Source: Tomocerus qinae
Taxonomy: Eukaryota > Arthropoda > Collembola > Entomobryomorpha > Tomoceridae
DNA: 64,000 nucleotides
Direction: 5' to 3'
Assembly (NCBI GenBank): GCA_020055645.1
Contig: CM034548.1
Span: 40,292,296 to 40,356,295 of the forward strand
Shown here piece after piece: positions 1,250-49,660 of this stretch. Positions within the stretch are counted from its first letter, which is position 1, and each line of letters starts with the position of its first letter. The translations under genes and the position numbers were made by a program. The notes beneath the pieces are model-generated. The model saw only the letters and a program-made list of their open reading frames with translations, had not been told where the DNA came from and ran no database searches.

Positions 1250-4200
1250 AAAGTTGCAAATTGCGTTACACAACATTGGAAACATTATAAATATTGACGT
1301 CATTCAGTAGTCACATTTTGTGTCGTGGAAAATGTCTAAAGGGTCGTGTTACAATTATTTCCCGACGTCATTCGTAGGATTATCGGATATATTATGTATT
1401 ACTTGAATAATGATGTCCTAGTTATTGCAGTGAGTGGGATAACAAGTATCATTATATAATGATTATATATACATATATGTCTGACCTGCAATTTAGGATG
1501 AATAGATTAATAGAGTTTGCATGGGGATAGACAGTTATGATTATAGATGGTAGATGCATGCATGTATGTACTTAGTTTCCTTTATTTAGGTAGTTCATTT
1601 GCACTTTATTTACGACATAGCACAGTTTAGTAGAGTTCAGTCATCAAAGGCGAACCCCATTTCGTAATTATACATAACTATGGGAAGAAAGCGGGAGGAG
1701 AGAGAGAATAATACGCTTCATTTGAGCTCAGCTTGTCAGTTTTGTTTGTGGTGTGAAATTAAAGGAACTCGGTTTATTTGTTAAACAATGATCTCCACCA
1801 AATTCTATGTATTATTATGTGATGCAATGTAGATAGGTATATGTATGTTGTGCAGATAAACGAACCGACACGAAGTATAAATTACTAAACATGGCAAAAC
1901 GGGCTGACAGGAAGCTCATCTATAGCCACTGACTATTATATAACTATATTGTTACACTTAAAGACTGCTGTGACTTAACTATATACTTATATAGACCACA
2001 GTACAAGGGCAGTTCAAGTCGTAGTCAATTTTCTTGTATGTACCACAATGACAAACCAACTTGGCATTATAGTCATCAGTCTGCCTGTTAAGCTTTATGC
2101 GATGCGTACGCGTAGTTCGTGGCTTTTTTGGACTCATTTCTTACACCTCTCTCTACTTACACATTTTCGCATACTTGTGCATTTTTGTCCTATTGTACAG
2201 CTATGTATATTTTGGTATAGGTTAGTTGACTAGAGTAGGAAAACGTGGAATTGACATGACGTGTGTAGAGCGTGGCTTCGGTGATCGACTTCGGTTCACT
2301 ACTCTCCTCTCCGTGCTCGTCGCTCTGACTTGCAGCTTCCCAGCCCATGACACTTGTGTCTTCTCTATTTCATATTTTTATGGACTTTTCCTTGTCAAGA
2401 CCTCTCTAGCTCCATTCCTTGTTCGTTTTACATCGAAAATACTAAAAATGACAAATTAAATGTACCTAAGTATTTAATTTAGGATGAATAAATGTTGTAA
2501 TAGGGATAGATCGTCTAAGTTATGCAACTACTCAGGAAGCAATGACTAGATAGCCTTTGGCAGTAAATGCACTTTATTTTTCCATGTTTAGCAAATGGCT
2601 ACATTTACAAGAGCAATTAATTAGCTACGCTAGTATAAAAATAGCGTGTTGTTCAAAGATTAAAGGCAACATCCTAAAGATTTTCGTATTTTTGCTCAAA
2701 ATCAATTTACTTAAAAGATTGGCGTAATTTTTTACGTTGTAGACAGCTTTCCTGCACTAGAGTGAATCTGTCTACACTTGTTACGTTTATTTTTTACCTA
2801 TTAAGGCATATTATATAAAGATAATTTGAGTAATTTGATGGATAGTATATTTAGATTGCAATTTCATCCAAAATTGGATTAAAGGCAAAACTTTGTGGAC
2901 GCGTTGATGATTTCTGGTTAAGAACTGGGAATAGCTTTTAAATTAAAAAACTAAATTGCTACAGAAGTAGAGAAAGGAAATTGTTCTGGAATTGGCTGAC
3001 AGACCACAAGTGATTGAAATGTGTGTATGTGTGTAATCTTTAGTTATTGGACGCCATTAAAGACGAACGAACGTACGTTGCCCGCATATTTGCCTGGGAC
3101 ATACTAAGAATGAGGGCAAGTGAGCAGTAGTGCGAGGGAATCTTAATCTAATCACAGCGGTCCGTAAGTGTTTCAACAATCCAGCCAGGTAGATGCAACA
3201 GCAGATGAGAATATTATATCCGTTTAGGATCAAGGTGGACGTAGTATAACATAAGTGCTGGTGGGTGGGATATAATTTGGCTGAAATAGTGCAGAGCGAG
3301 GTAGATTTAGAGAGAGAGACACAGAGACTGAGAATTGTGGCTGTACTAGTGACTTTTGTGACATCAGCTCAAATCCCAATAATCACACTTTCATCTGACC
3401 TATATATACGCGTGTAATATAAAATGTAATGACTCGTAGCCAAATGTCAATGAAGGGAACGTAGGAAAGTAATTCCGAGTGGTTTCGTTTCACTGCCGAC
3501 ATAAAATCTCTTTCAATCTGATCGTCAAACATGGAATACCTAGCAATGCATGTTAGTATAATGTAATGAAGAAGGAATAGTTCTGCGAATGTGCTCTTCT
3601 TTCTGTTACACTGCGATATGATGGCTTTTTTGGCTTGACGGAATGATTTGAATCGGCACATTATTTGTTTTACGATCCTTCGCCTTTCAATGCATTCATG
3701 TCTTCATTTCTCGTCTTTTCTGGATTGTCAGTTTATGATATTATTATTATTTTGGTGACATTGTTCAGGACATGGACACGTAAACGGTACTAACACATTC
3801 TAAGTATACACATACTGAGCACATAATCAATGCTAGTCTATATGATTGTCTTCGGACAACGTTATTCGGATATAAAATATGGCTGTTGAAGTAGGTTTAC
3901 ATTTACAGTTACTATGTAGGGCTATGTAATAAATAAATTCATCTGTAGAGGCTACCTAAATATATACTACTATGAGTCATTATGTGTGATGTGAACTTGT
4001 TTCGTGTTTAATTTCATCTCGTAAAGTAAAGTAGTACATCGTCTGCGTGCCAATTCATTGTAGTAGATACATTACAGTACACACCAATGCAATTCCATGC
4101 TTTAAGTAGGACACAAGAGAATCATTCTACCAATGTACGTAATCGAGAAATCAACACCGTCGATAGCCGATATCATCTCTCTCGTAATATACGAGCTATA

Positions 4201-7200
4201 TATTATATTTATCTTTCTAGGAAGATCATATTATGTACTTACTTAGTTGTATCTGTAACTGTAGTTCATTTACTTATATATCTATTGATGTGCTCCTAAT
4301 TTTCTACCATTTCTATCACGTGTGTATTAAAGTGAATGCCACTCCAACATGTACTCCATTTATAGTTTCTCATTTATCCAGCTCTGTTCTGCTTAAATGG
4401 TCCAGAAACACTACACGGAAATGACAATGTGTGAGTAGACACATAATATTATTATGGATCGTGTAAGCAATAAATTATTTGCTCTACTTACTTATCTTTT
4501 CGCATTGCAAACCCATATACTAGAACAAATGATTGTTAAGGGATGAGCAAAGTGAGACACATTTTCTAGTGGGGCAATTTTGCGGTTTTAGAAGAGAGAA
4601 CTCATTTAACGTTATAACATTTATTGAATGAACATATAATGTGTATAAAATTAATTCCACATGAGTAGGTTTAAGTACAGACTGCATTTTATATAGCTAA
4701 AATTGCAATTATTGATGCATTTCATTTATCTGTGCAATCAATAGACATTTCTTTACAAGATGTGTGCCTTTTTACTGATCCAAAAAATAAAAAGAATTTT
4801 TAAAAGTCAATAGACATTTGGTATAGGATTTTTGATGGGATTGACTGGAGGGAATGGCTAGGTAGTATAAGTTAGTTTTTAAAGTTGTGGAGTAATCCTT
4901 GCAGTTTTAGACGTGTAAGTGTAGTTTGTGAATAGTTGACTGTAGTAGACAAAGGTAAATAGGGAGAGAGAAGTTTTGTGCGAAAGACTTGACTGATATT
5001 AATCTTGAGAGAGTGAGTTGAGCTGAAGTCTATTTTATAAGAAGTAACGATAAGTAGAAGAGTAAAAGAATGGAGGGAACAGATGCAGACGGAGGTTTGG
5101 GCAGAGGAGGAGAAAGCTGGAGAAAGTGCAGGGGAGAAAGACGCACAGCGTTCATCAACATTTAACTCGGTCTTCTTAACTCTGCCTCCTTGTAACGTAA
5201 TATAAAGAAGAAAAGAGCCACTCAGTCAAGATAAGTTAGCTGCATGGCTTGACTGAGTTTGGCTTGGCCCACTAATGCCAAGGAACGGGAAGAACGTCAA
5301 GTGCTTCTTCTCCAGTCCTGGAACAGCTTGAATATTATCCTATTGCCTTACTATTTCCTTGTGGTGGTTCGAGGCTCCAGAAAAGTGTGCGGACTCACTC
5401 TGTCTGAATCTGGACTCACTCAATCCGATGCTCTCGCTCTGGTTTTCCACTACACCAACTTTATAACTTACAGTCAGAGGATATTTACGTTGACGCTATT
5501 AGCTCAGAATGAATGCAGGGCACAGCCAATGCATTAGGCCAACCAAATGTTCCTACTCTTCTTTTATTGTATCATCTAAAAATGCGTCTCTCTCTCCCCA
5601 TACACGCTGTACTACTCTATAAAATAAAAGTTTAGAAATACAAAACTCAATTCTCTAACTAATGCCATCAAAAATGTGCATTTTATTATTTCACACCCCA
5701 TGCAGAGTGCAAAAGTCTACAGTCCAATAGTAATGGAATATCTTTATGTCCTTTTTTAGTATATTGGATCCCTGGTCACATGAATAGCAGATTGAAAATT
5801 ATGATAATGTCGTCTCCTATAAAACTTTAAATGAACACCTTAGTTTTGTAACTTTAAACATCATATATTATGACTATAAAACACTCAACATTTATTGAAT
5901 AGTACTCTCAATATATTATAGTCATCCTGATCGATGAACTTGTTCGATCATTTTCTCGGAGAGATAACTGTAAAGAAAGGAAGACAGATAACCCTACTAG
6001 GAGGTCTATTGTTCCTATTCATTTAGTTAGATACCTCATTATAGACATTTTTCTGAGTTTGTGCATTAACAGTGCATTAAAGAAATTATTATATTTTGGA
6101 GACAAAAACTTATCTTATTCCGAAATAGTTGTCCTTGTCCAAAAGTCCACATGTGGCATGCACAATTCGGGGTGGTACAATAAATAAACAAGATAGCCAG
6201 AAATTTTTTTGTATGCAGGACGTGGTGTGTGGATTGTGGGATATATTAGAAAACTAAAAGGGTATGACTACATGACGTGGTGTTTGCTATAGTTGTACAC
6301 AGAGCTATTATAGGTATACTGAATGAAATGATTTGAGTATTGAAGTGCATAAAATAGAAAGCCTGTGCGTGGTCACGCCATGCCAAAAGGCTATCGCAGA
6401 GCAGTCTAGCAAACCTACTGTTGCTTTCCATCACTTTTTCCATTTCTTGTTCGCTTTTTGTAGCACACATTCTGATTGTGAACGGAGGGAAGTCAACTTT
6501 TAGGTATACACATTATAGTCATGGATTTGGAAGGCCAACAACATTTCGATTTCAAACCCGGAGAAAGAGAAGTGACAAGCAGGTCGCTCTGACAGATTTC
6601 CTGTTCGTGCTCTCCAGCTCTTTTGTCAAGGGTAGGTACTACTAGGCAGTGCTACATTCAGTTCAGTCTGAAGAACATTCGTCCGATTTTACAAGTGAGT
6701 TTTTTGTAGGCAGGTAGTTATCGGAAATTGACTGCGAGGACAGCTTTGCATCCAGAATAATGGAACACCTATCTAATAATGCCAGGGACCTATATGCAGT
6801 AGTACTAAGAAGAATATAGACTCTCTCTATAGGTGGTGACAGTATTATTTATTTGGTTAAAGATTAAAGAGAGAAAACGCCGCATGTTGTCATGTAGAAA
6901 AATCAAGACCTTGCATTTGTCTGAACCTTTTCTCCGAATTTTACTTCGGAGTGTTATGCAATCTCACACTTACAGTTTAATGAACCTACATATTATGATG
7001 TCATACACAGTCGTACCTCTACATACATACTGACGATATTATCTAATGATTTTCAATTAAGAATTTCTGTGTACATTTTAAAATACCTTTTCATCACATC
7101 GTAATTCAACTTAAAGTGGAAAACCTGGTTGCCTTTTTTGTGTGAAATCAGAGGATGTAGATAGAAATAGAAATTAAGCGTCTACAGATTAATAGATAAG

Positions 7201-10200
7201 TACGTATAGTTCTTTGCAAGAAGCTGCTAGGTGAAGCATAGAGAACTTTCCTTGAAGTAGTGTAAGGGAATTTATTAGTGCTTTGTTCATATTAACGACA
7301 TAAATAAGAAGTTGCGTGCATCATGATATTTATATAAATTGTAAACGTATAGCTATTATTTCAAACGGGACATTTAGCCTATAGTGATGACCAGTAGCAT
7401 TATTTGGCATTAGTAGATATATAAAGTGTAGTAGTAAATATTTATGTGCAGGAGCAAAGAAGACATAAATGTTGATATAAGGGTGGAGACAGAAATATAA
7501 ACTATTAGGTTGGGTTTTCTTTGAAAGCTTAGTATAAATGTTATTATAAGAGAGATAAAGTCTTTCTTTGAGTCAGATCAGATCGGAGTCTTGTTGGCTT
7601 TGATTGGAACAAAAGAGTAAAAGTTACTTTCTTCCTTCCCACAGTAAAAACATAACATACACATGTGATGTTAGAAAGTGCCGTTTTCTCTGCGACACAG
7701 TAAAAGAGTACATACGGATGGAACAACAACAGAGATGATATTTGTAGAAGTATTTTGATAGTATAGTTGTTGTACCTGGAGAAAGTTCTTAGGAGCAGTA
7801 CAACAATACATAACAAAAAGTAGACAGAGAAATAGAGGTTTCCCAATTGCTAGAGTTTGTCTGGAGGCAATGGACGTATAAAGCAAGTTGTACAATTGAG
7901 TCGAGTAATGTTCTCAATCTTAGATAATGTGCAGTAGTGTAAGTTGTGTGCGTATGGATACAAATTGAACGGAAGAAAGCTCTCTGCTAGTTGGTAGACA
8001 GTCTAATGCATAATATTATATCTGTAAACAGTTATTGTTATATATCCAGAAGAGGAGGTATGATAATAATAATATGATGGCCTAGAGCTAACTACCTTGA
8101 TATTACTCGGGTGGAAATGGACAGAACTCCGTACTTGAGACTCTATTTCCAAGGAATTGTAACATCATAAAGCTAAGCTGAGCTGTTGTTAGCACTTGTG
8201 TTTTTATTGTGCCCATGATACAAGTTACACTTATTATGGATGTTGTACATTCCAGTTCTCTTGTCATAGCCAGAGGGAGATACACACACCGAGTTTTCTC
8301 CAAAAATCTGAAATAAATTCTCTCGTTTCTCGTATACTTATTGCTTCCCAGCACCGCTTTTCACTCTGTGGATAAATTATTAGCAGTTAACCACCTGGCC
8401 ACCTCTGAGATCATCCTTATAGTCGAAGACACGTCTTATGCATGAGATTTTAAAGGGCAGTGGCCTATCTACTCCTGTTTTAAATAGTACACTCACCAGA
8501 CTTTCTCCGACTTTCTTTCTAACTAAGTTCGTTCACTTCAGTATAATTTGTTGTAGCCTATTGCAGTTATTCACTCACGCTCTCTCACAACGGCGAGTCA
8601 CTCCTACCAACAATAACCACACTACAGAAAGCACTACTTACTTACTACTGGAGCACAAGTTTATTTGAACACACTCTATACCATACTCTTGCAGAACGAA
8701 TGCTACCAATACCAAGTGTGTCTATTATTGCATTTTACTGAATTCAATTCAACTCAATGACATGGCTGCACTACTCACTTGCTTTATTTTATCACAATGC
8801 TATACTCTTATTGCTACAAAAGAATCTTTAAAGATGAACCTTTCCTTACTACAAGTAAGAACATAATTTACTACTACTCTATACTATCTATACAACTCAG
8901 CCATGCATTGGGAAAGTTAAAGAAGAAAGAGATTTCATTTCAATTCCAGTTCAACTTGGTTTCTATTTACTTTTAGACAACGATTATTCCTCGACTTAAT
9001 TAAACACACATTTTTACCCTCATTTCTAATTGAACTGTAAGACGAGGAGGTTATTTTCGTATCGTAGTACAGAAGATGGATCAATGTCGGGAGAAAGAAT
9101 CCAGCCAACCCCAACTGATCTACATAACTTAACTCATCCTTGAAGATATAAGGTATCCTGTTTTGTTTGGTAGTGAAAGCTGAGATGGGATCTCACGTAG
9201 GTGCCTGCCTAGTTACAATTTGGGTATAGTAGTGGGATGGAAGGAACAAGTTTGTATAATGGATGCGTATTGCTTTCCGTTTTGCGTGCGGAAATCAATG
9301 GGGAAGGTGGGACGACAGGATAACATTGCAATGGACTGACTTGACTTCCCTCTCCTATTCCATCGCATGCCATGGATCGCTTTGTAGCTAACAATAACTA
9401 TCCTCTCCTCTGCTCTAGTTTCTCTCCACAAAAGGTGCTCCACTTTTATAAGAAAACTCTCATGGCGGAATTTTACAACCTCCTCATCTACCTATACTCT
9501 ATTAAATTAAGCATTCCATCATTTGCAAAAATTATCACAAGCTTTGATTTGTTTGAGAATCTTTTGTTTCCCAAACAAAACCAGAACTACAGTAGTGTAC
9601 AAATAGCAAGACGAGACGTTTTTGCAAGTAATCGAAAATTACCGACTCAAAGGAAATTGAGTCACGACTGACGTCAAATCTTCTTCTTAGTCTATCTATA
9701 GTAAATACTTAGTCTCGCCGTAGATGTTAATTAAATATAGTTTACCAATATTTCAGAAATTTCATTAGGGGAAATAGGGGAAATCATATTTTCACCATGA
9801 ATGTAAGGGCGTGGGTGCGGCTGCTTCTTTCTACAAAGTGTGACTTCCCTTCGTCACTCACTACCTACTATATATAAACTGTGTGCTGTATCTAAATATG
9901 TGTAGCACGCTAGTGAAACGATAGCAAAGGGAATTTAGAAAAGAGGAAATGAATTTTCGTCGCTTCTTGTCATTTCACATCGCACTGCAATTTGTTTGAC
10001 GTGCGGCTAAAGGCTAAACAGTTCGTTCTGTTAGATCCGAAAGTCTAAAGAACTTAGGAAATTAAATACTTTTGCTGACGCTTTGGAACTATACCTTGTT
10101 ATTTCATTATTTGGTAGAATATAATTTGGATTTTATTGTAATGGTGTAGTTATTCACTCAGGTAGATAAGAGATTACTCTCTACAAATTCATTTGTACTT

Positions 10201-38605: not shown

Positions 38606-38860
<255 letters not shown>

Positions 38861-45044: not shown

Positions 45045-45057
45045 AATTATGTATCTG
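45045..45057. repeat. LINE target-site duplication, left copy
   Basis: AATTATGTATCTG occurs here and again, identically, at 49648-49660 directly after the LINE tail. The pair marks the two boundaries of a single insertion. Confidence 0.93.
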
Positions 45058-45697
45058 TGATGAACTCTTCCTCTGTTCTTCCTCCGATAGTTTTTGACCG
45101 TTGAATGCTCCTTTCCACACGAATTGCTTTTGGTAAATCCTCGTTAATGTAGATGTTCCTTTTGTTCATCGATTTAAAGTTTTTTAGAAGATGCCGGTTT
45201 CTAAAAACTAGGTTTCGGTCGTAGCGAAGACTGAAGCGTACAGCAATAGGTCTTGTTTTCCCATTAAATGTGTGCGGTAGCCGATCAGCTGTGTCAATCT
45301 TTACATTAGAGATTTTTAGCCCCTATTCGATGATGTGCTGCACCTTTTGGAAACGCTGCTCCTCAGTTTCTGTGTTTGAGTCGTCGATCCCAATAAAAAT
45401 CAGATTACTTCTACGAAGTTCTTTTTCCAGGTAGTTGTTCGTCTGCTGTAGTTTCCTATTGTCGTCCTCCAATATTTCCACTTTTGATTTTAAGTTTTTA
45501 ACTTCCTCCGACAACGTAGACGTATTTTGTTCTATGACTTCCAACTGTTTTTGAATATTTTCTTGACCAAATAAGATTTTTTGTAGCATTCTGTCTGTTT
45601 TTGATTTCCGTTGGTCTTCGTCCATCTCGTCATCTGCTCCCTCTCTGGGTCTTTTCAGCTCTGTTTTCTTTGGTGAATGTCCCCCAAAAGTAAACAT
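45058..45697 (-). pseudogene. LINE ORF1 (RNA-binding, coiled coil), inverted and broken
   Basis: Starts MFTFGGHSPKK at 45697. It has an acidic/basic N-terminus, then a long heptad-rich coiled coil (about residues 35-95, including LEVIEQNTSTLSEEVKNLK). An RRM-like segment starting RRSNLIFIGIDD follows. An in-frame TAG at 45325-45323 interrupts it after about 124 residues. The same frame then resumes with typical ORF1 features: DRLPH, KTRPIAVRFS, KRNIYINEDLPKAIR. It runs to the element edge at 45058, and the next stop is supplied by flanking DNA. Coiled coil plus RRM-like core is characteristic of LINE ORF1 proteins, which coat the element RNA. The native C-terminus is missing here because the inversion breakpoint cuts it. 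Confidence 0.8.
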
Positions 45698-46129
45698 CCT
45701 ATATAAATTTTATTCTTATTGTAATCACCATACAGCGAGCAACAGTTGGTAGATCGGTCAATTCTTTCGATGTTAAAAAGGCGAAAATAAGATTAAACTT
45801 AGACTTATCTGTTGACAAGCCCGGCCAAGCCAGTCTATGTTATGCCCCAGGGCGGTACAAAATTTGCTCGGACCGGGTAGAGATGCGATGGCTGTTTAGC
45901 TTCGATTTTACTATGTTAAAGTGTCAGGCGATGTTTAATTTAAAATTGGAATGTAAAAGTATTGCCTACCAAATTGTCTAAACTCAGTTTTAATCAAAAT
46001 TAAATCAAAGTAAATTGCAGTAATACAAAAGTTTGACCGCTCGCGGTGAGCGCCAAGGATCTCCCGTCAGCTGGGAAGGAGGATGGACAACCGCAAGTGT
46101 TGACACCTAACAACGACAACTCAAAATAG
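45698..46129. other. LINE leader and inversion junction
   Basis: The left part (from 45698) is the inverted 5' leader of ORF1. The right part (about 46020-46129) is + strand LINE sequence just before ORF2. A frame shared with ORF2 is open from after TGA (46034) to TAG (46127), reading AVSAKDLPSAGKEDGQPQVL. This may be the end of ORF1 in a normal element. The exact junction cannot be placed by eye and probably lies near 46000-46035. Confidence 0.5.
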
Positions 46130-49100
46130 GATATAGGCAGGCCCATAACACAACAATCAGGTTTAAATATAAGTTTCTGGAATCTAGAAGGTATTAATAA
46201 TATTTATAATATATTTAAAAATGACGAATGTATTTTAAAAAACAGTGACATAATCTGTCTTGTAGAGACATGGGAAAGAAAACCCAACATTAAATTATAC
46301 GATAAGTATTTAGATGAAAAATACTATGCTATTCACTCTCCAGCAATTAAAAATAAACAGAAAGGCAGAGCGGAGGGAGGTCTGTGTATACTAGTAAATA
46401 GAGGATTGTTTGTACATACAGTATTGTCGATGAACGAATATTGGATAATTGCGATGGTGTCAGGTAAAGACAACACTTGTACCAAGTTTATTTTAGGGTT
46501 AGTCTATATTCAACCAGATAAAGAAAGAAACGGTATTTTGGACTTATTATTTGAGGAACTAGAGTTAATACAAAATCAAAACCAAAACTGTTGCATTTTG
46601 GTTGGAGGAGACTTTAACGCGAGGATGGGAAAACTTGGTGATATTAATGCAAACTTGGCTGGTGTTATTGATGGTAGAGAAGAGCGCATAGTCAAAGATA
46701 CAGTGCAGAGCGTAAGGGGTGGTAAATTAAGCTCTTTAATCTATGAAAATAATTTTATTATTTTAAATGGTAGGGTGAAACAAGACATCCCAGGCGATTA
46801 TACCTTTATAAATGGGAATGGGAAGAGTACAGTCGATTTACTGTGGACCAATGAAGCTATGTATAACCATGTCATCGAGCTAACCGTCGAGGAATCCTCG
46901 TACTCGTACCATAAGATACTTAACCTCTCTACAGACCTCTACCAAAGGGAACAAAGCAAAAATCCGTCTAAAACTACCAAAAGGAAACGTAAACTGAAAT
47001 GGAATCCAGAGAACGCCAAAAAATATAGAGAAATACTTTCCCAGTATACGCCAACGAATGTAACAGACATCAATACTACAAATAGAAGCCTTAGCAATGC
47101 AATAAAACCGCAGGGCGGGAAGCAGGCATGTCAACAAAACCAACAGCTGAAAACAAAACGGAATGGTTTGATGCCGAATGTAGCGAAAATGTTACCGAAA
47201 TGAGGCAAATATACAGAAAAGGTAAATCGCAGGGATGGACAGATGAACTCCACTCCACATATATAAAGAAAAAGAAAGCTTTGAAATGCCTGACTCGTAG
47301 AAAAAAGAAGGAACTCCAACAGACAAGAATAGTTAACCTGAGAAACTGCAGGAAAAAAGGAAATAAGTTCTGGAAAACAGTAAAATCCTTTAAAAAGACA
47401 AAAAACAGAACAGAAAGTATACCCATCTCGAACTGGGAGAACCACCTTCACGAAGACATGCCCCAAATGCAAAGACCAGATCTTGGGTATCTTACCCCTA
47501 GAAGTATCGAAGTACTAGATGGCCCGATTGTCATGGAAGAACTAACAGACGCGTTGTCTAAATTGAAACCTAATAAAGCACCAGGGCCCGACAACATATC
47601 CAACGAATTTCTCAAAAACCTCCCAATTAACGTTCTCCAAGAATACTGTGCCCTGTTTAATCAAGCTTTAAGAACAGAAAATATCCCGGAAGAGTGGGCC
47701 CATGCTGAGATATGCACAATTTTTAAAAAAGGGGACCCCACCAACACGAGAAACTACAGATTTATATCATTACTAGGTACGACATTAAAATGGTTCACAC
47801 AAGTCTTACAAGCAAGAATTCAAACCTTTATGGACGAAAAAAGAATAATTGGGGAATGCCAAGCCGGTTTTCGCAAACATCGCAGTTGCCTGGACCATAT
47901 ATTTACACTATCAGCCCTCATACAACTAAGATTGTCAAAAGGTCACAAACTTTACACAATATTTGTGGATGTGGAAAATGCATTTCCCTCGGCGGACCAC
48001 GAAATCTTATTTTCAACCATGTTTGAGGAAGGATTTAGTGACAAAACGATAAGATTAATGGCGGACATCTATGGGAAAGCCAGTGTATGTGTGAAAACTG
48101 CCCTGGGGAAGACAAAAAGTGTTAAAGTATCGCGAGGCCTTTTACAAGGCGAGATATGCAGTCCTACATTATTCTCTGTCTACATAAACAAATTAGAACA
48201 ATGGCTTGATGAATCAGGAGCTGCCAGAGTACAAATTGACCCAAAAAATGGAATTCATCTCCTTATGTTTGCCGATGACATGGTTTTAGTAGCTGGAACT
48301 CTTCCCGATCTCCAAAGAAAAGTCAACGCTCTCTCGGACTTCCTTAAAGCTAGAAATCTAAGACTGAATATAGGTAAAACAAAAGTAATAATTTTTAGGA
48401 AAAAGGGTGCCATTCCTAAGAACACAGTTATAACGTACGGATGTGAAAGAATCGAAATTGTACCAAGTTACAAATATCTCGGGGTGGTATTTTCTAGTTC
48501 AGGAGTTTTTCGAATAGCTGCAGACTCCAAAATAAGTGAGGCTAGGGTAGCCGTCAATACGGTTTGGGGGACCCTAACGGCATCCAAAATGGATAATTGG
48601 GAAGGTAGAATTAAACTCTTTGAAACTATCGTGGAATCTTGCCTTCTATATGGAAGTGCTATATGGGGTCTCAGATATCTAGAAGATATAGAAAAAGTCC
48701 AATCTTTATTTCTAAAAAGGCTACTAGGGCTGACCAAATCTGCAGCTAACTATATTACTAGAGTTGAGTGTGGTAGGGTTAAACTAGCTTACAACGTTTT
48801 CAAAAGAGTATACAACTACTGGCTAAATATACTGGAATTGCCAAATGATAGACTAACAAAGATTGCCTACAACGCTCTGGTCAAACAAGAAGGGAATATA
48901 AAGGACCACAGAATGAGCTGGGTGTCACAATTCAAAATATTACTAGAGAAAGCAAATTGTATTACCATTTGGAATAGGCAGGACGCAAAGCAAGCTAGGG
49001 AAAACGCAACCTTTGCTTTTGAGAGCTTTAAAAAAGCGTTAGTTAAGGAGGACCTATGTAGGGTTGAAAAGTCTTCTTTCAACCCTGTATATAAATTATA

Positions 49101-49467
49101 TAAACCCAAAAATGGGATTCCTTGGTACTTACGACAATACTGTAGTATAAATAAAATTAGAGCAATAGCGCAAATGAGAATAGGAGGGGGCAAAATATAC
49201 ATTAGTGGAAATGGGTATAAATTAGAATCTCCTGACAATTGCTCGCTGTGTAATGTACAAAAGAAAGAGGACGTATACCACTTCTTATTGGAGTGCCCGT
49301 TACTTAAACAGGTTAGATCCCATTGGTTAAGTAATTACATAGACATTAATCCCACACTTAATGATTTTGTAAAAGTGTTGAGAGTATTTGACAGAGACCA
49401 TCTAGATAATTTATATTACTACTGTGTAAACGCACTGAAACTTAGAGCTTTTTTACGTAATGAGTGA
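46130..49467 (+). pseudogene. LINE ORF2: endonuclease + reverse transcriptase, frameshifted
   Basis: The endonuclease part (46130 to about 46930) shows LNISFWNLEG, ETW and GGDFNARMG, matching the N, E and D-x-N active-site blocks of AP-type endonucleases. The expected SDH block reads SYH (46904-46912). The reverse transcriptase follows with NKAPGPD, LLQGE..SP and catalytic FADD (codons 48268-48279). The C-terminus has a cysteine/histidine cluster, CSLC...H...C (from 49240). The reading frame changes near 47104-47107, inside a run of four A. Before it the frame ends at 47203 and after it the next frame is open to 49467. One missing A explains both. No ATG precedes the endonuclease after the TAG at 46127. 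About 1110 codons in total, a normal ORF2 size. Confidence 0.9.
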
Positions 49468-49615
49468 AATTATCCTTCTAGTTCCGTTGACCTTTGTACC
49501 TTAGTTCAAATTGACTAATTATTATTTCTTGTAAATTAACTTTTCACTTTTGCTATTATGTACTTTGCTGAATTGTGTTATGGGCTGAAGCCTGAGGAAC
49601 ACTAAAGATAAATAA

Positions 49616-49616
<1 letters not shown>
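49468..49616 (+). other. LINE 3' untranslated region
   Basis: About 150 bases between the ORF2 stop and the tail, ending GGCTGAAGCCTGAGGAACAC then AAATAAAT. The end sequence is likely the part recognised by the reverse transcriptase to start copying. This is inference from LINE biology. Confidence 0.7.

Positions 49617-49648
<32 letters not shown>
49617..49648. repeat. (TTGA)8 LINE tail
   Basis: Eight perfect TTGA units at the 3' terminus of the LINE, immediately followed by the right target-site duplication. The last A is shared with the first base of the duplication. Short tandem tails in place of poly(A) occur in several LINE clades. Confidence 0.95.
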
Positions 49649-49650
<2 letters not shown>

Positions 49651-49660
49651 TATGTATCTG
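49648..49660. repeat. LINE target-site duplication, right copy
   Basis: AATTATGTATCTG, identical to 45045-45057. It defines the right boundary of the insertion. Confidence 0.93.

Follow-up and report, generated by a model that had tools for sequence, protein, structure and literature searches.

A stretch of 64,000 nucleotides from the genome of the collembolan Tomocerus qinae (hereafter the window; C3:40292296-40356295) harbours, at positions 45045-49660, a long interspersed nuclear element (LINE) with its first approximately 1,008 nt inverted relative to the rest. By far the best explanation of this copy, and one in which we place high confidence, is twin priming, with both parts derived from one LINE RNA in one event. 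The same mechanism had been proposed from the letters of the window alone (the original prediction). The structure of the insertion, its breakpoints, the native order of the same parts in two sister copies (A and B) and a second case in another family are direct observations. The features of the insertion, including the open reading frames (ORFs) and untranslated regions (UTRs), are as follows.

45045..45057: left target-site duplication, AATTATGTATCTG; the final base, G (45057), would be expected from the element as well, giving a 1-nt overlap
45058..46065, minus strand: inverted 5′ block, 5′UTR and most of ORF1, extending to the 5′ end (GGGAGATCC...) seen in copy B
45058..45697, minus strand: ORF1, a coiled coil followed by a part weakly resembling L1 ORF1p
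46064..46065: inversion junction, CC compatible with the sense block as well as with the inverted 5′ end
46064..49647, plus strand: sense block, C-terminal remainder of ORF1, ORF2, 3′UTR and tail
46127..46129, plus strand: UAG between ORF1 and ORF2, same frame
46130..47203, plus strand: first part of ORF2, predicted apurinic/apyrimidinic endonuclease (APE)-type endonuclease
46141..46153, plus strand: 5′ arm of a proposed long-range pairing, GCCCATAACACAA
47095..49467, plus strand: second part of ORF2, after a frameshift; predicted reverse transcriptase and a C-terminal Cys-His stretch
49573..49585, plus strand: 3′ arm of the proposed long-range pairing, TTGTGTTATGGGC, in the 3′UTR
49616..49648, plus strand: (ATTG)n / (TTGA)n tail, (ATTG)8.2; its final A is shared with the duplication, as the first base of the latter
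49648..49660: right target-site duplication, AATTATGTATCTG

The ORF1-like frame lies on the minus strand and ORF2 on the plus strand, head to head, an arrangement already recognized in the original prediction and now borne out by the frames and the domain matches. The former frame has an ATG at 45697, contains one in-frame TAG (45323-45325) and enters the left duplication. Both blocks are indeed bracketed by a perfect 13-bp duplication (45045-45057 and 49648-49660), which occurs nowhere else as an exact copy in the 64 kb. As a control within the window, an exact copy 3-6 kb upstream was found for 6 of 52,286 13-mers outside the element, so that a chance 13-bp match is expected about once in 10^4, and this before demanding a position exactly at the end of the tail and at the edge of ORF1. 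The (TTGA)n tail that had been postulated is present as (ATTG)8.2 at 49616-49648. No tail and no specific duplication occur at the ORF1 edge of the insertion, the insertion edges are not repeated at the inner junction (longest match 7 nt; null median 7, 95% point 10), and no second copy of the element was found within the window.

A search with the element against its own genome (334,443,149 bases in 115 contigs) returned at least 26 matches, and two loci besides the window carry nearly the whole element, namely copy A (C1:26.61 Mb) and copy B (C1:55.47 Mb). The sense block of the window copy is 99.5% identical to copy A over 3,578 columns and 97.5% identical to copy B over 3,584 columns, and the inverted block is 98.5% identical over 1,004 columns (copy A, in the opposite orientation) and 97.0% identical over 1,015 columns (copy B). 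In both sister copies the 5′UTR, ORF1, ORF2, 3′UTR and tail follow one another in one direction, with ORF1 directly upstream of ORF2, and since both read ORF1 in sense, ORF1 is natively sense. Copy A has a duplication of 15 bp, AATATAGACGAACTT, and both frames intact; copy B has a duplication of 16 bp, TGACATGATATTTAAA, and its ORF2 is interrupted late. Ten further genome stretches were compared to cover copies with weaker matches, and ORF1 is likewise sense and upstream of ORF2 in the related copies L016, L017, L018, L020, L022 and L023. A natively antisense ORF1 and a solo ORF1 family had been named beforehand as findings that would speak against twin priming; copies A and B exclude the former, and no ORF1 living alone was seen among the at least 26 genome matches, where ORF1 is covered only by the window copy, A and B.

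Alignment to the full-length copies, as proposed in the original prediction, maps the junction to the base. The native stretch in A and B reads GTTCATCAC-TACAAAAAGA-CCGTCAGC, and the window copy is without the middle 10 nt: next to the left duplication the inverted block terminates in GTTCATCAC, and the sense block opens with CCGTCAGC, so that 10 nt are missing at the inversion point. The first approximately 1,008 nt are thus inverted, compared with A and B, up to the duplication, with the 5′ side of the element at the inner junction and its inner end at the duplication; this supports the claim that the 5′ leader lies beside ORF2 and the 3′ side at the outer edge, as twin priming predicts. The opposite end of the inverted block, GGGAGATCC, at the inner junction, is the same as the 5′ end of copy B directly after the duplication of that copy. 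Short overlaps are present at the joins, CC (2 nt, 46064-46065) and G (1 nt, 45057), each of which alone could be due to chance. The single duplication, together with the abutting of the two blocks in the native copies, upholds the view that the ORF1 and ORF2 parts were inserted together.

A second inverted copy comes from another, related family represented by L018 and L019, the sense parts of which are 99.2% identical over 4,022 columns. Whereas L018 has the native order and its own 14-bp duplication, AAATGCCACATCAC, the first part of L019 (C1:20475900-20485800; element at 3399-8063), corresponding to approximately 570 nt in terms of L018, is inverted. Judged by eye, L019 has a single 14-bp duplication, AAATAAGCGGTTGA, at its positions 3399-3412 and 8050-8063, has lost 1 nt between the breakpoints relative to L018, shows a 2-nt overlap (CA), and its inverted end stops approximately 20 nt short of the 5′ end of L018. 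The first-strand nick sites are ATAATT/AACC in the window copy, TATATT/AAGC in copy A and TTATTT/AATG in L019; those of copy B (ATGTCA/GTGAGT) and L018 (GCATTT/GTTAAA) fit that pattern more poorly.

Among 13 insertions of the group with a judgeable 5′ end, two are inverted (the window copy and L019), five are 5′-complete (A, B, L018, L016 and L017, with L016 and L017 called so only from a 14-bp duplication approximately 435 nt upstream of ORF1), and six are truncated. The truncated ones comprise a C4/C5 pair, counted once because its members are 99.9% identical including the flanks, a copy at C1:139.72 Mb, L021, L022 and, from the L018 family, L031 with a 14-bp duplication and L032 with none that is clear. 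The tally omits L020 and L023 (5′ end unclear), the broken or partial copies L013, L015, L024, L027/L028, L029, L030 and L033, and weaker genome matches whose sequence was left out; as the searches began from two inversion-bearing families, two of 13 is not a rate. Two side observations concern the surroundings of such copies. The loci L011 and L012 (C4:1210400-1213200 and C5:23958800-23961600) share approximately 2.76 kb at 99.9% identity, including one truncated LINE copy, and represent either a recent duplication or an assembly duplicate. In L020, a 683-bp exact direct repeat (1223-1905 and 6926-7608) flanks the LINE copy, apparently clear of its ends.

From these structures we infer the order of steps and the enzyme activities that would have produced the window copy. 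Nicking of the bottom strand by the endonuclease at ATAATT/AACC would release an end that primes complementary DNA (cDNA) in the (UUGA)n tail, with synthesis proceeding as far as a point just within the ORF1 end. A second cut, 13 nt away, would open the top strand, whose 3′ end would anneal within ORF1 of the same RNA, approximately 1 kb from the 5′ end, priming a second cDNA that would run to the 5′ end of the RNA. Joining of the two cDNAs at the 2-nt overlap CC would then yield the observed kind of product: an inversion of the first approximately 1,008 nt, a loss of only 10 nt at the inversion point and a single 13-bp duplication.

Twin priming is favoured because A and B have the parts in sense order, because the two blocks abut there but for 10 nt and share one duplication, and also because the inverted block reaches the 5′ end of copy B, the overlaps are short and L019 provides an independent case. 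A number of observations weigh against it. The annealing of the top strand is not strongly demonstrated, as the putative second primer and its template share 1 nt in the window copy and match imperfectly in L019. The assignment of the 5′ end depends on copy B; copy A differs in having 7 extra nt before ATCC, and its match to the inverted block starts 5 nt further in. A 63-nt stretch of the inverted part of L019 is unmatched in L018, which has 9 nt there. Composition alone put the junction at 45.67-46.00 kb, while its true position is 46.06 kb. Moreover, in the single genome analysed, another repair route that gives the same product would look like twin priming.

The most serious competitor is a full-length insertion that underwent a subsequent two-break inversion of its 5′ part, with the outer break exactly at the edge of the duplication. 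Nearly the same structure would be expected from it, and the inversion is undated relative to the insertion, yet one break would have to coincide precisely with the edge of the duplication, and would have to do so again in L019; moreover, the losses of 10 nt and 1 nt and the 2-nt overlaps fit cDNA joining at least as well. We therefore consider a later inversion improbable. An assembly error at a repeat is still less credible: although the inversion is known here from the assembly and not from reads, the duplication is perfect, the joins show short overlaps, the window copy has substitutions of its own relative to A and B, and the second case lies on another contig. The opposed frames, present in the window copy only, could also suggest two head-to-head elements (an ORF1 piece and an ORF2 LINE) or an ORF1 natively antisense. 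Against this, A and B carry both blocks in sense at 97-99.5% identity, the other copies with ORF1 sense and upstream of ORF2 (L016, L017, L018, L020, L022 and L023) agree with them, and the ORF1 edge has neither a tail nor its own duplication, so that this reading has a negligible probability; a separate ORF1 element and a native antisense ORF1 are both ruled out by copies A and B.

As for the identity of the element, ORF2 matches the Pfam families Exo_endo_phos_2 (3.5e-9; 46130-47203) and RVT_1 (1e-29; 47095-49467), and its C-terminal Cys-His stretch reaches 20.9 bits with zf-RVT, under the cut-off of 27.5. The reverse transcriptase part matched R2 and LINE-1 ORF2 chains in the PDB by sequence (10 hits), and the endonuclease part alone found no PDB match at E up to 0.001. 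The element is thus predicted to be an APE-type LINE, with an AP-like endonuclease and a reverse transcriptase encoded in ORF2. The frame upstream is probably ORF1 of the same LINE, an identity less certain than that of ORF2 and resting on its position in nine copies. Translated past its stop, ORF1 gave a weak match to LINE-1 ORF1p (E 0.011, top of 12 PDB hits at E up to 10), and its two pieces searched apart gave no such match. With a profile of six ORF1 sequences, LINE-1 ORF1p provided the two best of 72 PDB hits (5.4e-5 and 5.5e-5; E up to 1), the matched stretch including the coiled coil. All Pfam matches of ORF1 are below cut-off and mostly to coiled-coil families, and its structure model is poor (mean predicted local distance difference test score, pLDDT, 58.7). 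No relatives were found in the plasmid collection, IMG/VR or GTDB.

A side result of the analysis, which may matter more than twin priming, concerns the junction of the two ORFs. ORF1 and ORF2 of copy A occupy one frame with a single TAG between them, ORF1 having 242 codons when counted from the stop before it and ORF2 having 1,111. Of 11 copies given to the frame test, nine had both ends and two lacked one end; in all nine comparable copies, spread over six families (A/B, L016, L017/L020, L018/L019, L022 and L023), ORF1 ends at a TAG with GA after it, and this same codon immediately precedes ORF2, which lies in the frame of ORF1. The copies listed with a UAG in a shared frame are the window copy, L009, L010, L016, L017, L018, L019, L020, L022 and L023. 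The shared frame is lost in L027 and L028 (C1:30.73 and 30.74 Mb), decayed relatives of L018 that lie approximately 10 kb apart and probably represent one insertion, duplicated, given their 99.9% identity over 1,851 columns. The first Met of ORF2 is at residue 15-151 (nine copies) and the endonuclease starts, by eye, at about residue 10-20, so that initiation at an AUG would trim or remove the endonuclease. Such an arrangement is what stop-codon readthrough would be predicted to require: a single stop separates two in-frame ORFs, and the first domain of the second has no AUG ahead of it.

The region following the UAG is complementary to the 3′UTR. In the window copy, positions 46141-46153, which begin 14 nt downstream of the U of the UAG, are perfectly complementary to 49573-49585, a pairing that taken alone could be due to chance, with two other perfect 13-nt pairs among the 25 longest in the 5.1-kb stretch. 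Other families show the complementarity too, their sequences differing in part, with the 3′UTR segment lying approximately 3.4 kb away; the arms are as follows, those of L017 and L020 being taken from the common register (the automatic search gave another stretch as the longest).

A and B: GGCCCATAACACAA with TTGTGTTATGGGCT
L016: GGCCCACAACACCC with GGGTGTTGTGGGCT
L017 and L020: AGCCCACAACA with TGTTGTGGGCT
L022: AAGCCGGCCCAT with ATGGGCTGGCTT
L023: GGCCGGCCCAT with ATGGGCCGGCT

The motif GCCCA stands at a constant offset of +14 to +18 in seven of nine copies and is missing from L018 and L019. Paired changes on both sides occur at offsets 19, 25 and 26; they separate A from L016 and L017, which are themselves related, and may thus reflect few events. 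A mismatch is present at offset 24 in L017, and pairing is lost at offsets 20 and 24 in L022 and L023. The helix starts approximately 6 nt after the UAG in L016 and L017, a common spacing in recoding signals.

The pairing was subjected to controls in six representatives (A, L016, L017, L018, L022 and L023), the near-duplicates B, L019 and L020 being omitted. When the 37 nt after the UAG were compared with 40-nt windows more than 120 nt away across the element (744-889 windows each), the best partner was the 3′UTR site in five of the six, and the observed energy was reached by 0, 0, 0, 2 and 2 of 500 mononucleotide shuffles in these five families. Chance complementarity is thereby rejected for five of the six families and stands for the L018 family, where 156 of 500 shuffles were as good. 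In the reverse scan, in which the other arm was slid along 778-783 windows, the only equally good windows in A, L016 and L017 were those overlapping the stop; L022 had three equally good windows approximately 2.5 kb downstream, L023 one window 259 nt upstream, and L018 136 of 781. Pairing across families is often strong, copy A reaching -40.3 with the 3′UTR of L022 and -39.6 with that of L023, compared with -33.8 with its own, which indicates that the core is shared and that co-evolution within families is only partly demonstrated. Conservation of the UAG flank could also come partly from the protein (G-R-P after the stop), although the Pro after the stop, where present, is always encoded by CCC. 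The 3′UTR segment folds as a hairpin in three of four sequences tried; shuffles at least as stable numbered 42 of 200 for the window copy, whose fold does not clearly stand out, 6 of 200 for L020 and 11 of 200 for L023, where it stands out more, and 74 of 200 for L018, where it does not. A candidate signal of the tombusvirus type, with an element just 3′ of the UAG predicted to pair with the 3′UTR, is accordingly present in five of the six families and not in the L018 family.

Separately, the 3′ ends of L016, L017, L018, L022 and L023 share a common 3′UTR segment, and their tail units differ (TTGA, ATTC and ATT). A role for the pairing in guiding the second primer towards the ORF1/ORF2 junction was considered and is unsupported, the breakpoint lying approximately 65 nt before the UAG in the window copy and approximately 520 nt before it in L019.

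We propose, from these sequence patterns, that this LINE group may make ORF2 as an ORF1-ORF2 fusion by UAG readthrough promoted by pairing with the 3′UTR approximately 3.4 kb downstream, a proposal whose chances of being right or wrong we regard as evenly balanced. The 3′UTR arm would adjoin the start site of reverse transcription; once copying began at the 3′ end, the pairing would be disrupted and no more ORF2 would be made, a form of ‘traffic control’. A rival reading dispenses with readthrough and has the complementarity govern how accessible the 3′ end is to reverse transcription. If UAG readthrough proves true, LINEs would share a form of translational control with plant RNA viruses, and synthesis of the reverse transcriptase would be coupled directly to the onset of reverse transcription.

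Two further features of the window deserve mention. An exon of a Rap1-like small GTPase lies at approximately 38627-38758 (PDB Rap-1b, E 8.7e-23), and positions 979-1252 comprise two tandem copies of approximately 138 bp that are 89% identical.

The inverted insertions can be compared with known cases. Ostertag and Kazazian reportedly attributed 5′-inverted human L1 insertions to twin priming in 2001. In cultured human cells, 5′ inversions of human L1 mostly have duplications of 10-20 bp (PMC4245944), a range that includes the 13 and 14 bp of the two inverted copies described here, and microhomology at the joins of such inversions is frequent (PMC2912911). The likeness extends to a single duplication of 10-20 bp, an inverted 5′ part with its own 5′ side facing the inner junction and, more tentatively, short overlaps at the joins, whereas the present copies belong to another LINE group, have a (TTGA)n tail and, in the window copy, an inverted part reaching the 5′ end of a sister copy. 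The zebrafish LINE Nimb-2_DR gave one 5′ inversion in chicken DT40 cells (PMC4245944); it is likewise a non-L1 LINE, but that was a cell-culture event in a foreign host, while here two natural insertions from two families are concerned. The claim that the mechanism reaches beyond mammalian L1 is strengthened by two natural cases, although in view of the Nimb inversion it is not wholly new. No report of twin priming in an invertebrate LINE was seen among the titles and abstract openings listed for open-licence papers on the subject, and papers on Drosophila R1/R2 (PMC2718515) and Anolis (PMC5389967) name it only in their reference lists. The mechanism is known, and is seen here twice in the LINEs of one genome; its record so far comes chiefly from mammalian L1, and the clean natural cases described here, two in number, extend it to a different LINE group. 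Twin priming may thus arise generally as a side product of LINE insertion, given a duplication of sufficient length (here 13 and 14 bp).

For the proposed readthrough, the passages and listings seen in open-licence papers on the subject described no case of UAG readthrough joining ORF1 and ORF2 in a retrotransposon lacking long terminal repeats. Within LINEs, the likeness is to SART1 (stop-start), L1 (reinitiation) and L1Tc (2A), all of which obtain a second protein from one RNA (PMC5972666); what distinguishes the present group is a shared frame, a single UAG, no AUG before the endonuclease and complementarity to the 3′UTR. The nearest parallels are the bipartite UAG readthrough signals of carnation Italian ringspot virus and tobacco necrosis virus D, likened to frameshift signals that pair 4 kb away in PMC5009743, where ‘traffic control’ is also noted as a proposal for barley yellow dwarf virus. 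In tombusviruses, too, the stop precedes the polymerase gene and the signal has one part just after the stop and a distant one; those, however, are viruses, whereas here a similar readthrough is predicted from sequence for a LINE retrotransposon.

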